From the NCBI GenBank assembly GCA_011524975.1, contig WTJD01000184.1:7844-49230 (forward strand): DNA of 41,387 bases, in the 5' to 3' direction. The translations under genes and the position numbers were made by a program. How positions within the stretch are numbered: position 1 is the first letter of the stretch; every line of letters begins with the position of its first letter. This DNA comes from Lysobacterales bacterium (lineage in GTDB: Bacteria; Pseudomonadota; Gammaproteobacteria; Xanthomonadales; SZUA-36). This document shows, in pieces, positions 3,457 through 11,166 of this stretch. The notes under the pieces were generated by a model. That model ran no database searches and was not told the DNA's origin. It saw nothing but the letters and a program-made list of their open reading frames with translations.

Positions 3457-4743
<1,287 letters not shown>

Positions 4744-4759
4744 TGCCTGCGGCTTTATC

Positions 4760-4789
4760 AAAAAGGCCGGCGTGAGCCGGCCTTTTTTG
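4760..4789 (+). terminator. intrinsic terminator of aceA (probably bidirectional)
   Basis: AAGGCCGGC and GCCGGCCTT form a stem around a GTGA loop, with an A-run before and a T-run after it. It can therefore stop aceA from the left and the TPR operon, which ends at 4819, from the right. Confidence 0.9.
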
Positions 4790-4818
4790 TGCCTGCGAAT
4801 GCCAGCACCGCGGGTCGT

Positions 4819-6609
4819 TTATGGCAGCAGATTCATTTCCTCGAGCATGTGCCGGAAACGAGGATCATCTCGAATGGGATCGAAGATTTTCATGCGGTTG
4901 ACATGAACGGCGTAGGCCCCATTTTGCGCTTGATGCTTAACCAGCGTCTCCAGCGCAAGTTCATGGCGTCCCAGCAGCATCAGCAAAAAGGGCGCGTTAA
5001 AGGGGTCGGTGGGGAAATCCACCTCTGGCATCAGGCTGACCACCTGCTCGGTCAGTGACGGGTCCTCCATGGCATCGATCGCGGTGAGAATGAATTCCAG
5101 CCCCGGCGTGTCCTGCAGTTCGTGGAACTCGGTCCAGCGCGCGCGTGCCATATCCAACGCGCCGGTGCGCATGTAGACCTGGGCCAGGTTCGAAATCGCG
5201 TAGGGAAAACCGGGGTCCAGCGACAACGCGGCAAGGTAAGCCTCCTCAGCCGGCTCTAATTGATCATCCCAATTGAAAATCCAGCCGCGAATGTGTGGAA
5301 TGATGGGCGCCAGCGGATCGATTTTTTCAGCGAGAGCAAGCTGCTCCAGCGCTTCCGGCAGACGCCCCTGCACGCTCAGCATTTCGGCGTACCACTGGTG
5401 CGCGGTGACGTCATTGGGCTCAAGCTCGATGGCCCGCAAAAACCCGGCCTCGGCCTCTTGCCATTGATATTGGTACATCGCCTTGATGTAGGCTGAGGTC
5501 GTCAGCGCATGGGCGGATTCCGGGTTGATCTCCAGCGCGCGAGCGGTGGCGGCCAGGGCGCGGGGAATATGTTCATCGGGCGTGCCTTCACTGTATTCGG
5601 GCAGCAGCAGGTAGACATCGGCCAGGGCCGCCCACGCCTCGTCAAATTCAGGGTCGAGCGAGGTGGCTTTCTCCAGGGGTTCGATGGCCTCCGACATGCG
5701 CCCCGGTATCCGCAGGTTCCAATGATGCCGGCCTTTCAGATACAGGTTGTAGGCCTCGATGTTATCCGTGGGCCGCTGCTCGAGGATCTGCTCGTCTTTA
5801 CCGGACAGCGTCACCTTCAGCGCGCCGACAATGGCGTGGGCAATCTCGTCCTGTACGGCAAAAATATCATCGAGTTCGCGGGTGTAGGTCTCCGACCAGA
5901 GGTGCGTGTCCGTGCCCACGTCAATCAGTTGAGCCGTCACGCGAATCCGGTTGCCGTCTTTTCGGACCGAGCCTTCGAGCACGTGATCGACATCCAGTTC
6001 GCGGCCGATCTCACTGACTTTCAGCCTGCTGTCTCTGAAACTGAAGGAGGACGTGCGGGAGGGAACGCGCAACCCCTCAATGCGAACCAGCACATTCAGC
6101 AACTCTTCCGAGATACCATCGGAAAAATACGCGTTTTGCTGGTCCTCGCTCATGTTGAGAAAGGGCAACACCGCGATCGATGGTTCATTGTTCACCGCGC
6201 CGTCGTAAGGTTCCTCGGTGATGGCGCTGGAGGCCGGGCCAGGCGTGTTGGCGCTTTCCGTGTCCGTAAAGGTGAAACGGTCCGCCAGCAGAAACACCAC
6301 TGCAACCGCCAGGAAAACGATCACCATGCGGTCCAGTTTCCGGCCCGTCTCACGGGTGATGGATCGGCTGCGCTCCACCTCCCGCTCCAGTTTCAGGCCC
6401 TCCGGCGTGACTTCGAAAAGCCATGCGCCGATCAGTACCGCGGGAAAGCCCGCGGCCAGCAGCATCATGGTGAGGTGCATGATCCACACGGGTGCGGTGA
6501 TGTATTCCATCACGAGGTCGAGCACCTGCAAAAACACCCAGACGGCGACGGCATAGGCCACGCCCACGCGGAACACGTTGCGGCGCTGGAGTTCCGCGAA
6601 AAAGCTCAT
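4819..6609 (-). CDS. membrane-anchored TolB-like/TPR protein, paralogue 1
   Basis: The 596-residue protein is the last of three tandem paralogues. Hydrophobic segments at about residues 14-34, 43-65 and 94-110 form a membrane N-terminus beginning MSFFAELQRRNVFRVG. Residues about 143-268 form a TolB-N-terminal/FlgO-like domain (SIAVLPFLNMSEDQQNAYFS; HVLEGSVRKDGNRIRVTAQL). The rest, about 283-560, consists of TPR helices (AYNLYLKGRHHW; ATARALEINPESAHAL). Relatives are often found in gammaproteobacteria and are sometimes fused to adenylate cyclase or winged-helix domains, but no catalytic domain is visible here. A scaffolding or envelope-sensing role is only a guess. It starts 64 bases after the stop of paralogue 2 and has no strong ribosome site. 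Confidence 0.85.
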   Translation of the reverse strand: MSFFAELQRRNVFRVGVAYAVAVWVFLQVLDLVMEYITAPVWIMHLTMMLLAAGFPAVLIGAWLFEVTPEGLKLEREVERSRSITRETGRKLDRMVIVFLAVAVVFLLADRFTFTDTESANTPGPASSAITEEPYDGAVNNEPSIAVLPFLNMSEDQQNAYFSDGISEELLNVLVRIEGLRVPSRTSSFSFRDSRLKVSEIGRELDVDHVLEGSVRKDGNRIRVTAQLIDVGTDTHLWSETYTRELDDIFAVQDEIAHAIVGALKVTLSGKDEQILEQRPTDNIEAYNLYLKGRHHWNLRIPGRMSEAIEPLEKATSLDPEFDEAWAALADVYLLLPEYSEGTPDEHIPRALAATARALEINPESAHALTTSAYIKAMYQYQWQEAEAGFLRAIELEPNDVTAHQWYAEMLSVQGRLPEALEQLALAEKIDPLAPIIPHIRGWIFNWDDQLEPAEEAYLAALSLDPGFPYAISNLAQVYMRTGALDMARARWTEFHELQDTPGLEFILTAIDAMEDPSLTEQVVSLMPEVDFPTDPFNAPFLLMLLGRHELALETLVKHQAQNGAYAVHVNRMKIFDPIRDDPRFRHMLEEMNLLP

Positions 6610-6673
6610 CGGCCCGGGCCGGGTAAATACCAGGCGGCGCCGCGCGGCACGCGCAAGGCGACGGGATTATTCA

Positions 6674-8905
6674 TCATGGATTCCATTCCGGTTCCAGCAG
6701 CATTTGCCGGATGTCTGCACGCGCGAGTTGATATTCCGCTTCCCGGTCGGTGATCAGGGCCGCCATTTCCGGAACGGCGGCCACCTCCCGCCACATGGGT
6801 TCTTGCAACGACTGGTGTAGGTCGGGCACCACGGCCAGGGGTCTGTTGAAATCTTCATCAATGAGAATTCGCGCAGCTTCCTCAGTCTCCCCTCTGAGCA
6901 CCAGGTCCCAGGCCCGATTGCTGGCTTCATCCTTCCAGGGCAGGCCCGTGCCATCCATTTTCACCGTAAACATCTCCCAGTTCTGCAGCACTTCCTCTGC
7001 GGGCAGATAATCTTTCATGAGGCCGATTGTTCGCCACTGCATCATGATCGGAAGAAAGCTCTGAAAGGTCTGGTCGAACGCCAGCAGGTTCGGCTCGCGG
7101 GAGACCAGGTATTCGACGGCCTCCTCCGAGCGACCCGCTTCGGCCATCAGTGTGGTGTACCGATAAATTGCGGAGCCGATGGCGCCGCGGCGGTCGCCCA
7201 CCTCGTCCTCGATCATTTGCCGGGCAAGGTTGAGCGATTGCTCGTCGTTGCCCATGGCATCTGAACGCGCCAACTCGACTTTGCGCGCGACATCCGACCC
7301 AGGGGCCAGTATCGCCACCTTCTGAGCCCAGCGGTCCCCTTCCTCGGCCAGCCCCAGGGCGTAGAGCTGCTCCGCCAGGAATGCCGCCAGTTCATGGTCT
7401 TCCGGGTCTGTTTCGGCCGCTTTCCGATACCAGTTCAGCTTTCCGCGCAAATCACCCATGCGGGCTGATATGGAGGCGAGGTTGGAATAGTGATTGGGGT
7501 TGCGTGGGTCGAGCTCATTGGCCTTGGTAAAAGCCGCCAGGGCATCTTCGAGCCGATCCATTTTCATGTAGACCGCGCCGCAAGAGGCGTGAAGGTTGGG
7601 CTCCAGGGGGTCAATCAACAAACCTGCCTCGATCACGGCCAGCGCGTCTTCGGGCCGGTTCATGTACCCGGCCAATCCGTTGACCAGCAACTGCCGCAAG
7701 TAGCTCTCAGTGGGTATTAACGGCATCAGGCTTCGCAGGCGACTGATGCGCTCATCGCGCTGTACCGGATCCATGAGCACTGACTGCTGGCGCAGCTCGA
7801 CGGCCAACTCCAGCGCTTCGGCCAGGCGGTTGTCCGGCTGCCTGGACCGAACCTCAGCGATCAGCGGTTCGGACTGGCGCTGAAGGTCTTCATCATCAAT
7901 CAAACCCGTGTCATTCATCTTGACCAGGTTGCGAACCAGGCCCAGCTTGGCATCAATGAATGCGGGGTCTTCTGCCAATGCCTGCTTGAACAGGTCCTCT
8001 GCCTCGGCCAGGCTCCCATAGGAAAATACGGCCTGTTGTTCGATGGCTTTAAGGTAGAGCTCATAAGCCCCCAGGCTGGTCGTCTCGACACGGTGCATGT
8101 GGTCGTTGGCGCTCAACAGGGACGTGTCCAGCGCGCTGGCGACATCGGTGGCGATCTCGTCCTGTATGGCGAAGATGTCTTCCAGGGGACGGGTATAGTT
8201 TTGCGACCAGATGTGAAAACCGTCCTGGGCCCGAATGAGCTGAGCGGTCACGCGCACACGGTCGCCGGACTTCTGCACGCTGCCCTCCAGGATATGCTCA
8301 ACCCCCAGCGTTGCAGCGATATCCGCCACGCTTGTGTTCTCGCCCTTGAAGGCGAATGAGGATGTGCGCGCGGCCACGCGAAGATCGGGCAGCTGTGCCA
8401 GCATGTGCAGGAGGGTTTCGGTCAGGCCATCAGAAAAATACTCGTTTTCCCTGTCGTTGCTCATGTTGACGAACGGTAAAACGGCCACCGAGGCGGGGCT
8501 GTCCGGCGCTGCGTCCTGTGCCACTTCGGTGGCGGATTGTGCGACAGGGTCTACGGAATGCCGCAGCACCAGCTTGTCGACCAGCAGGTATGCCACCGCT
8601 ACGGCCAGTACGCCGATGATGGTTCGGTCCAGTTTTCGCCCGGTTTGCCGGGTAATGGACTGCGAGCGGTCCACGTCTTTCTCGCGCATGATGCCTTGCG
8701 GTGTCATCTCGTATAACCAGGCCAGGATCAGAGTGATCGGTAAGCCGATCACCACCAGCGCCACGACGATCGGCCCGACTTTTTCGGGCAGGGTGAGGAG
8801 CTCCGACAGGACTTCGGTGAGCTGCAGAAGCAGCCATGCGCCGACGGCGTAGGCCACCCCTACCCGGAATACATTTCGGCGCCTCAACTCGGCGAAAATA
8901 CTCAT
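6674..8905 (-). CDS. membrane-anchored TolB-like/TPR protein, paralogue 2
   Basis: The 743-residue protein has the same plan as its neighbours. The N-terminus is MSIFAELRRRNVFRVG with hydrophobic segments near 14-33, 44-65 and 94-110. The conserved juxtamembrane stretch (EMTPQGIMREKDVDRSQSI) leads to the third segment. The TolB/FlgO-like domain is at about 138-264 (VAVLPFVNMSNDRENEYFS; HILEGSVQKSGDRVRVTAQL), followed by TPR-like helices (LIDPLEPNLHASCGAVYMKM; ANELDPRNPNHYSNLASISA). Its ATG overlaps the stop of paralogue 3 as ATGA, so the two are translationally coupled. No enzyme motif is seen. The longer C-terminus compared with paralogue 1 suggests a different partner. Confidence 0.85.
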   Translation of the reverse strand: MSIFAELRRRNVFRVGVAYAVGAWLLLQLTEVLSELLTLPEKVGPIVVALVVIGLPITLILAWLYEMTPQGIMREKDVDRSQSITRQTGRKLDRTIIGVLAVAVAYLLVDKLVLRHSVDPVAQSATEVAQDAAPDSPASVAVLPFVNMSNDRENEYFSDGLTETLLHMLAQLPDLRVAARTSSFAFKGENTSVADIAATLGVEHILEGSVQKSGDRVRVTAQLIRAQDGFHIWSQNYTRPLEDIFAIQDEIATDVASALDTSLLSANDHMHRVETTSLGAYELYLKAIEQQAVFSYGSLAEAEDLFKQALAEDPAFIDAKLGLVRNLVKMNDTGLIDDEDLQRQSEPLIAEVRSRQPDNRLAEALELAVELRQQSVLMDPVQRDERISRLRSLMPLIPTESYLRQLLVNGLAGYMNRPEDALAVIEAGLLIDPLEPNLHASCGAVYMKMDRLEDALAAFTKANELDPRNPNHYSNLASISARMGDLRGKLNWYRKAAETDPEDHELAAFLAEQLYALGLAEEGDRWAQKVAILAPGSDVARKVELARSDAMGNDEQSLNLARQMIEDEVGDRRGAIGSAIYRYTTLMAEAGRSEEAVEYLVSREPNLLAFDQTFQSFLPIMMQWRTIGLMKDYLPAEEVLQNWEMFTVKMDGTGLPWKDEASNRAWDLVLRGETEEAARILIDEDFNRPLAVVPDLHQSLQEPMWREVAAVPEMAALITDREAEYQLARADIRQMLLEPEWNP

Positions 8906-11166
8906 TCTCTACTCTTCTCTCGCGTCAATCCGATAAATTCGTCTCTTTGCGCAGTGATATCCCTGTCAATGCGCTGTTTGATGTCCAGGAACCGAGGCTC
9001 CATCCGGAGGATATCAAACATGGGGTGGCTGATCGGCAGCCACCATGAACCCAGTTGGCCGTCCTCTATGGCCTGCTCCATTCGTGACAGGGCGCCGTCA
9101 ATATCGCCCAGGACCATGTGGCATTGAATCAGATCCATGCCTCTTCGGCGCTGCTCATGGGGCCGACGTGTCAGGGTATGCCCAATGGCCTCCCGGCTGA
9201 TGTCCTCAGCCAGTGAGGTGTCCAGCTCTGAATGAATCACCCATGCAAAGGTACAGGCTCTGCCGGGCACGTCCCTGGCCATGCCCAGCAGCGACTCCGG
9301 GCTTGCCGCGCTGAACCCGGCCTCGGAAAGCAAAGCCATCGCATCGGCGTATTCTCCGCGGTAGCTGTGCACGGTCGATTGCCAGCCCAGCGCTGAAGCG
9401 CGAGTTCTGCCATGGCCCTCGCCAGTCCTTTCAACCCAGGCTTTCGCCGCCGCCAGCGCTGCTTCCAGCTTGCCCTGGCTCAGGTACAGGACGCTCTCTA
9501 CCATGGCCAGTGTGGTGCTGGCCGGGTCCAGGCGTTCCACCCGCGCAATCAGGTCCTCGTATTCGTCTTCCAGCCGCAGGGATGTCAGCGTCCAGACTTC
9601 AGCCAGCTGAAAGACGATATTGCCGGGGTCCCGTTTCTGCGCCTCCCTCAGCCAGTACAGCGAATCGGCGAGCTGGCCCTGGGCAAACTTCATCTGCGAC
9701 AGGGTCGAGTAATTCAGCGCAAAGCGCTCATTCATCTGGATCAGTTGTTGCAACCGGGCCTCGGCTTCCTCGAAACGCCCCAATCTGCCCAATATCCAGA
9801 CCATCTGCGTTTGCACGCTATTGGACAGCGGATCCAGCTCAGAAGCCCTTTCCGCGGCAAAAAGCGCCTCGTCCGCGCGGTCCGGGTGCGGTGCCAGGTG
9901 CGCGGCATAGCGTATCCAGGCATCGGCCAGCCCCGGGCTTAGCTCGATGGCCCGGGTCAGGGCCTGTTCATACTCGGGCATCCATGACCCCTGTTCGCGG
10001 CGGATTAAATCGGCGTGCGCCAAGTGGGCCTCGCCCAGCTGATCGTCCAGTTCGAGCGCGCGATTGACCCCCTCGCGGGTGATTTGCAGGGTCTCTTCCA
10101 TGTCCATGTCGCTGAAACTGAAGCCCTGCCCGGCGCTGAACGCCAGACCGACCCAGGCGAGGGCGAATTCCGGATCCAGTTCAGTGGCCCGTCTGAATTC
10201 CACCAGTGCGCGATCAGCGCCTTCTGAGCTGTTCAGGCTTAAAGCCTGCCTTCCTCGAAGGTAGGCATTGTAGGCGGCGAGATTGTCGGTCGGCCGTTCA
10301 TCAATGCGCTGTCGCTCCTCGGCGGACAGTGTTGACTCGAGCGTCTCAGCGATATGCTCGGAGATTTCTGTTTGGATCCGAAACAGATTTTCAGCGGTCA
10401 ACTGACGATCAAACGCCTGGGCCCAAACGTGATCATCAGCGTCGGCCCGGATCAATTGCACATTGATGCGGACGGTGTCTCCCGCTCGCTGCACTGACCC
10501 CTCCATGACGTGTGCCACGTTCAATTCACGGGCGATTTGGGGAAGGGTCTTTTCGGTGTCGGCGAACTGGCTGACCGTGGTGCGAGATATGACTTTGATG
10601 CCGCCGATGCGGGCCAGGTTGGTGAGCAAGTCGTCGTGAATGCCCTGGACGAAGAAGACGTCTTCCGCCAGCATGCTGCGGTTTTCAAAGGGCAGCACTG
10701 CAATGGACTGGCGGGAGATGAGTTCATCGGAATCGGACGCGGGCGCTGCAGCCTGCTGAGCCCCGTCACCCGCCATCACCGGCTCAGGGTCGTGGGAAGA
10801 TGCCCCGGGGTTCTGCCAGGGGCTCTCCCAGAATTTGTCAAACAACAGGTAAGCCACGGCCAGCGCCAGGAGGATAAGGATGGCGCGGTTCAGCCGCTTT
10901 CCCGTTTCCCGGGAAACGGACTGGGTGCGATCGATTTCACTTTCTCTCTGGATACCCTCTGGGGTCAGCTCAAAAGCCCAGGCAAAAACCAGGGCGGGCA
11001 GGAAGCCGATGAGCAATATCAGCAGAACGAGCTTGGGGGCCCACTCCGGCAGGCCGAGCATGGAATTGAGCGTGTCCGCCACCTGGATGATGATCCAGCT
11101 GGTCACCACATAGGCAATCCCGACGCGGAATACGTTCCTGCGTTTTAACTCTCCAAAGAGTGACAA
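8902..11166 (-). CDS. membrane-anchored TolB-like/TPR protein, paralogue 3
   Basis: This 754-residue protein is the first gene of the triplet. The start codon is TTG at 11166, supported by alignment of its N-terminus (MSLFGELKRRNVFRVG) with both paralogues and by GGGGA ten bases upstream. Hydrophobic segments are near 14-31, 45-66 and 94-109. The TolB/FlgO-like domain covers about 153-283 (SIAVLPFENRSMLAEDVFFV; HVMEGSVQRAGDTVRINVQL). TPR helices follow (AAYNAYLRGRQAL; RRATELDPEFALAWVGLAFS). The 202 bases upstream, to the M14 peptidase gene, hold no promoter I can support. The TTG start may keep expression of the operon low. The function is unknown. Confidence 0.85.
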   Translation of the reverse strand: MSLFGELKRRNVFRVGIAYVVTSWIIIQVADTLNSMLGLPEWAPKLVLLILLIGFLPALVFAWAFELTPEGIQRESEIDRTQSVSRETGKRLNRAILILLALAVAYLLFDKFWESPWQNPGASSHDPEPVMAGDGAQQAAAPASDSDELISRQSIAVLPFENRSMLAEDVFFVQGIHDDLLTNLARIGGIKVISRTTVSQFADTEKTLPQIARELNVAHVMEGSVQRAGDTVRINVQLIRADADDHVWAQAFDRQLTAENLFRIQTEISEHIAETLESTLSAEERQRIDERPTDNLAAYNAYLRGRQALSLNSSEGADRALVEFRRATELDPEFALAWVGLAFSAGQGFSFSDMDMEETLQITREGVNRALELDDQLGEAHLAHADLIRREQGSWMPEYEQALTRAIELSPGLADAWIRYAAHLAPHPDRADEALFAAERASELDPLSNSVQTQMVWILGRLGRFEEAEARLQQLIQMNERFALNYSTLSQMKFAQGQLADSLYWLREAQKRDPGNIVFQLAEVWTLTSLRLEDEYEDLIARVERLDPASTTLAMVESVLYLSQGKLEAALAAAKAWVERTGEGHGRTRASALGWQSTVHSYRGEYADAMALLSEAGFSAASPESLLGMARDVPGRACTFAWVIHSELDTSLAEDISREAIGHTLTRRPHEQRRRGMDLIQCHMVLGDIDGALSRMEQAIEDGQLGSWWLPISHPMFDILRMEPRFLDIKQRIDRDITAQRDEFIGLTREKSRE

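Follow-up and report, generated by a model that had tools for sequence, protein, structure and literature searches.

The window analysed here, a stretch of 41,387 nucleotides (nt) from a Lysobacterales bacterium, carries a triplet of long genes, A, B and C, each encoding a membrane-anchored protein with a TolB-like domain and a tail of tetratricopeptide repeats (TPR). Its source genome is a 3.24 Mb assembly of 293 contigs, 96% complete. The triplet is transcribed in the order C-B-A, and a gap of 64 nt separates B from A (table 1). The first-pass annotation of this DNA had placed the three minus-strand open reading frames (ORFs), the TTG start of the first and the ATGA-joined pair exactly where we find them. 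The TTG start of gene C is supported by the fact that MSLFGELKRRNVFRVG aligns end to end with A and B.

Table 1. Features of the gene triplet (positions in the window; aa, amino acids; TM, transmembrane helix).
Feature	Position	Strand	Remarks
Gene C, first of triplet	8902..11166	minus	754 aa, TTG start; orthologue of first gene in G012/G020 arrays
Gene C membrane module, residues 1-113 (cytosolic N-tail, TM1, TM2, cytosolic loop, TM3; sidedness predicted)	10828..11166	minus	
Gene C TolB/CadC-like alpha-beta domain, approx. residues 153-276	10339..10710	minus	
Gene C TPR tail, residues 282-754, long class	8905..10323	minus	
ATGA stop/start overlap, genes C and B	8902..8905	minus	
Gene B, second of triplet	6674..8905	minus	743 aa, ATG start; orthologues in several genera
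Gene B membrane module, residues 1-114	8564..8905	minus	hydropathy
Gene B TolB/CadC-like domain, approx. residues 139-260	8126..8491	minus	
Gene B TPR tail, approx. residues 265-743, long class	6677..8113	minus	
Gene A, third of triplet	4819..6609	minus	596 aa, ATG start; orthologues in G024, G002, G001, G012, G020
Gene A membrane module, residues 1-114	6268..6609	minus	model helices and hydropathy
Gene A TolB/CadC-like alpha-beta domain, residues 143-265	5815..6183	minus	
Gene A TPR tail, residues 284-596, short class	4822..5760	minus	

All three proteins contain the motif RRNVFRVG, and hydropathy gives each of them three hydrophobic peaks, near residues 12-33, 46-64 and 95-114 (15-33, 46-64 and 96-114 in A), in agreement with the three segments and the membrane-anchored N-terminus proposed in the first-pass annotation. 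Only residues 1-14 precede TM1; a basic segment lies ahead of this helix, and the loop between TM2 and TM3 is charged and slightly basic in A, B and C. The loop follows the conserved pattern TP-E/Q-G...DRS-S-T..TG.KL.R after TM2. This is the juxtamembrane block that had been described as TPEG; it is common to the three proteins, but B reads TPQG, so that the motif is TP(E/Q)G. Identity to A over residues 1-265 is 51% for B and 41% for C, falling to 36% and 35% over the whole protein, and the description of a common membrane module with divergent TPR tails is thus borne out. Other members of the family score E-values of 1e-92 to 1e-120 against a profile built from A, B and C, and chance is excluded.

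The domain beyond the module had been called TolB/FlgO-like, an assignment that Pfam leaves below its curated cut-offs and that fold comparison supports more strongly. FlgO (PF17680) scores 17.4, 22.2 and 14.6 bits in the three proteins against a gathering cut-off of 22.6, TolB_N (PF04052) reaches 14.8 bits in A (cut-off 22.4) and TIGR02800 18.7 bits in C (cut-off 343); membership of FlgO or TolB was rejected on these scores, and the models of A and C contain no beta-propeller. Several TPR models (TPR_19, TPR_11 and TPR_14 among them) pass their cut-offs in A, B and C. Matches to CadC and HilA in NCBIfam span the TolB-TPR part below threshold, while the Pfam scan of the three proteins detected neither the PF00486 winged helix nor a cyclase catalytic domain. 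Proteins of the TIGR04510 type, in which a TolB/FlgO-like domain and TPRs are combined with a class III cyclase or other outputs, are matched weakly (38 and 54 bits against a cut-off of 400); they share the TolB-like domain and the TPRs with the triplet, but the latter lacks the cyclase and has a different membrane module.

Structures were predicted with AlphaFold2 from alignments of 85 sequences for A (A and its locus-derived relatives) and 60 for C, with mean confidence values (predicted local distance difference test) of 87.9 and 89.0, respectively. In the model of A, helices 12-37, 42-67 and 85-114 form the membrane module and are followed by a disordered linker, an alpha/beta domain and TPR helices. 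Its best match is the periplasmic domain of CadC (3ly9; VIA-align Z 21.8, root-mean-square deviation 4.3, 305 residues aligned, model residues 136-463), which is also among the best ten Foldseek matches. For C, CadC reaches Z 17.8 over approximately 300 residues (151-477) and ranks under larger TPR proteins, the tail of C being longer. As TPR scaffolds in general score nearly as high, the match to CadC is distinctive mainly through the alpha/beta domain ahead of the helices. Most of the PDB matches are confined to residues 144-584 of A and 154-716 of C, beyond the three-helix module. By prediction, the ectodomains of A and C show the architecture of the CadC sensor. Homology within the same bacterial family points the same way: its regulators combining a winged helix-turn-helix (wHTH) with TolB and TPR domains, which are devoid of the module, share homology with the array proteins in the TolB domain, with E-values down to 6.7e-52.

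CadC is a ToxR-like, membrane-anchored one-component regulator with a cytosolic N-terminus (PMC9214523). The models of A and C resemble its ectodomain (PDB 3ly7) in the periplasmic TolB-like alpha/beta subdomain followed by TPR helices, and the predicted side of the N-terminus is the same. However, the winged helix is missing, three membrane helices replace the single one, the TPR tail is longer and the genes lie in tandem arrays of many paralogues. We therefore do not claim membership of the CadC family, as the winged helix and the single membrane helix are absent.

The membrane module is also found joined to other domains, and their places on it indicate its topology. Three proteins (L057, L148 and L150) have a CadC-like winged helix before the module and TolB-TPR after it. 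In two others, an FHA domain follows TM2 of a two-helix module (L147:1468-2166, E 4e-20; L149:1471-2154, E 2e-18). The source genome itself encodes a module with a CHASE domain after TM3 (PF03924, E 2.4e-36; L007/L128, L128:6065-7468 on contig C238). From these positions, as well as the basic character of both segments, the N-tail and the TM2-TM3 loop are most likely cytosolic, and a periplasmic location of the TolB-TPR part is strongly inferred. Another bacterial family contributes a protein (L191:3461-5317) with a winged helix, a STAND-like NTPase and a complete three-helix module with nothing past TM3, which is, by its domain order, an output-only counterpart on the same module. The existence of sensors devoid of an output and of outputs devoid of a sensor suggests that the module itself joins them, and the fusions as a whole suggest a shared signalling or assembly module. 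By eye, no obvious kinase lies in the immediate neighbourhood of the two FHA proteins, and the CHASE protein has no recognizable output domain. On visual inspection, a helix-turn-helix seemed likely within the loop that joins TM2 and TM3 of L064:7618-10023; Pfam did not confirm it, and it was not used.

The triplet belongs to a large family. All 24 genomes of the same bacterial family that are at least 90% complete have matches at E<=1e-20, with 2 to 42 copies each (seven in the source genome), and a less complete, 6% contaminated genome of the same genus (G001) has 65 matches at E<=1e-5. Many of the copies form head-to-tail arrays of about ten (9-10) genes, in which ATGA overlaps are frequent. 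Among sampled genomes, the membrane module alone was detected in 5 of 299 from the phylum and in 6 of 370 from the class, the source genome being counted in both. All 75 loci that we found in GTDB contigs come from metagenome-assembled genomes (MAGs), the only form in which this bacterial family is known here. No description of such arrays was found in the literature on TolB, TPR, FlgO and cyclase proteins, COG5616, array gene conversion or family expansion; RcbAB (PMC12282931), a cytoplasmic TPR pair, is unrelated.

A, B and C are members of this orthologous 3TM-TolB-TPR array family, with its canonical module, TolB domain and TPRs, its orthologue groups and its syntenic position. In trees of 193 proteins, they fall into three separate groups, each spanning several genera, whether the tree is built from the N-terminal module with TolB or from the tail. 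Compared with the ten-gene array of G012, C corresponds to gene 1, B to gene 6 and A to gene 8, so that the order is preserved, and the arrays of G012, G020, G024, G009 and G022 occupy the corresponding place. In the window, P-II, AmtB, LysR and isocitrate lyase genes precede A, and an M14 peptidase and a GSDH gene follow C; the arrays of the relatives are flanked by amtB/glnK, lysR and glyoxylate-cycle genes, by M14 peptidase and sorbosone-dehydrogenase-like genes at the opposite end, or by both (flanking genes were mostly identified by eye in the relatives, with Pfam assignments for six in the window and four in the relatives). Because of the orthologue groups, the kept order and the syntenic place, the triplet can be considered the short form of an old array. 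The first-pass annotation had instead proposed a local duplication followed by divergence of the tails, and had called for a phylogeny of the N-terminal modules against the tails. A recent triplication in this lineage would fit the tandem layout and the common N-terminus, but it does not account for three groups that cross genera in both trees, nor for a C..B..A order conserved at the same position in longer arrays, and we regard it as very improbable. Judged from trees and synteny, A, B and C arose by an ancient duplication and are what is left of a larger array. Most simply, the reduction occurred through loss of the intervening genes; alternatively, gain elsewhere accounts for part of the difference in array size. 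The isocitrate lyase gene (3457-4818) directly adjoins gene A, and malate synthase and an ORF of approximately 133 aa, which adjoin the array in G024, G012 and G020, are both missing at the window locus.

The different parts of the proteins do not follow this descent equally. Identities within versus between the orthologue groups of A, B and C are 79% versus 79% in the N-tail, 53% versus 50% in TM1, 48% versus 47% in TM2 and 67% versus 60% in the loop, and then 52% versus 37% in TM3, 78% versus 49% in TolB, 45% versus 23% in the TPRs and 38% versus 18% at the end. The divergence of the TPR tails between groups is in line with the expectation, raised in the first-pass annotation, that they bind different partners. 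Among pairwise identities of the 193 proteins, module and tail are uncorrelated (Spearman -0.005), whereas the values are 0.31 for TolB and tail and 0.41 for the two halves of the module. Likewise, the nearest tail orthologue from another genome is among the top three by TolB for 138 of 170 genes, versus 67 of 170 by module.

Pairs of neighbouring genes reveal where the module parts company with the rest. Two array neighbours (L034:5557 and L034:7803) are 100% identical in DNA over approximately codons 41-105 (TM2-TM3) and 37-60% identical thereafter, and nucleotide identity between two neighbouring L034 genes is 92.8% in the module versus 52.8% in TolB. Four further neighbour pairs show graded tracts, declining from roughly 78-100% to lower levels; in a short-read MAG, faulty assembly could produce a perfect tract but not easily a graded one. 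When the count was limited to pairs with tail identity below 28%, mosaics numbered 8 among the 73 adjacent pairs, 14 among the 703 remaining pairs within a genome and 91 among the 16712 pairs across genomes. The reverse pattern occurred in none of the 73 adjacent pairs. As pairs are not independent, the Fisher values (4.6e-4 and 1e-8) serve as a rough guide only. Equal similarity of the module within and between groups could also result from strong common constraint and saturation without any recombination, since the cytosolic segments are strongly conserved and hydrophobic helices are quick to saturate. This explanation is decidedly improbable in view of the sharp breakpoints in several neighbour pairs, across which DNA identity changes from 80-100% to 35-60%, of the enrichment of mosaics among adjacent genes, and of TM3, which is just as hydrophobic and retains more orthologue signal. 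On this sequence evidence, the membrane module is exchanged by recombination in the relatives while the sensor stays. N-terminal similarity is accordingly not a clean record of descent, as the module has been exchanged between neighbours in related arrays.

We consider it probable, if by no means assured, that A, B and C are CadC-type periplasmic receptors with no output of their own, acting through a common partner; that the array members sense ligands and share a partner is what we infer. Each protein would be an inner-membrane receptor with a cytosolic N-terminus, a TM1-TM2 hairpin, a conserved cytosolic loop and a TM3 leading into a periplasmic CadC-like ectodomain, made of the TolB-like alpha/beta domain and a TPR superhelix that would bind a ligand or protein of its own. 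The shared three-helix module would relay the signal to one partner that serves the whole array, either a second protein built on this module or a cytosolic protein that docks on the conserved N-tail and loop. In the arrays, sensors are inherited as stable orthologue groups, the number of copies rises and falls, and neighbours swap the membrane module by recombination, so that any sensor would stay compatible with the common partner; in the source genome the array is down to three genes. The wider proposal, that recombination keeps one module interchangeable in receptor arrays of about ten genes and dozens of copies per genome, with distinct inherited periplasmic sensors plugged into one output, is more tentative and possible rather than probable. 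If true, the arrays would be a large, unstudied receptor repertoire in a gammaproteobacterial family, built on a previously unnamed three-helix module, in which CadC-type sensing, detached from its DNA-binding domain, has been multiplied and shuffled. It raises a concrete, testable question, namely what the shared membrane module talks to. As for the roles in envelope stress and motility suggested in the first-pass annotation, we see no specific support, the fold pointing to CadC-type sensing and FlgO scoring below its cut-off.

Several observations weigh against this receptor reading. Many unrelated TPR proteins match the models nearly as well as CadC does or surpass it (APC/C, with Z 20.9 for A and 23.2 for C), and the source genome yielded no wHTH, FHA or STAND protein that carries the module. 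Recent exchange of the module within the triplet of the window was looked for and is not visible; the one hint, at best suggestive, comes from TM1-TM2 of B, which stands closer to group C (49%) than to group B (39%). The missing orthologue signal in TM1-TM2 could partly reflect saturation of hydrophobic residues. The main rival, unlikely in our opinion, is that these proteins are periplasmic scaffolds or adaptors, in which a TPR superhelix on an inner-membrane anchor tethers or delivers envelope proteins with no transmembrane signal, in the manner of LbcA or PilW. In its favour, TPRs bind proteins generically, the matches include PilW (Z 17.5) and LbcA/PA4667 (phmmer E 5e-5), and none of the three proteins has an output domain. 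LbcA/PA4667 and PilW, which also have a TPR superhelix in the envelope, are lipoproteins with neither the three-helix module nor a TolB-like domain. However, a simple tether would need no cytosolic N-tail that is 79% identical and no loop that is 60% identical between paralogues, and signalling domains (wHTH, HTH-STAND, FHA and CHASE) occur fused to this very module.

An improbable variant is a split one-component system, in which the array sensors would hetero-assemble through the three-helix module with a separate DNA-binding output protein built on it. Complementary architectures do exist, 3TM-TolB-TPR without output and wHTH-STAND-3TM without sensor (genome G479 has both kinds), as do one-piece wHTH-3TM-TolB-TPR versions (L057). 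Yet the source genome encodes no wHTH protein bearing the module, its ten wHTH proteins being 226-282 aa long, and a split CadC with its wHTH partner in the same genome was rejected for want of any such protein there. Within the bacterial family, matches to the HTH-STAND protein are confined to its wHTH part, so that a split system cannot be the general mechanism there. ToxR/ToxS and VtrA/VtrC pair a DNA-binding chain with a separately encoded periplasmic partner (PMC9214523) and resemble the receptors favoured here by analogy only, in that membrane sensing would require a second, separately encoded protein; unlike them, the array receptors have no recognized output-bearing chain and lie in arrays.

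The lengths of the array proteins are bimodal, at approximately 595-645 aa and 683-760 aa, with none between 645 and 683 aa in the set. Three longer ORFs of approximately 1100 aa with two TolB domains (L115:11064-14447, L116:14091-17399 and L124:2732-6031) are apparently in-frame fusions of neighbouring array genes.

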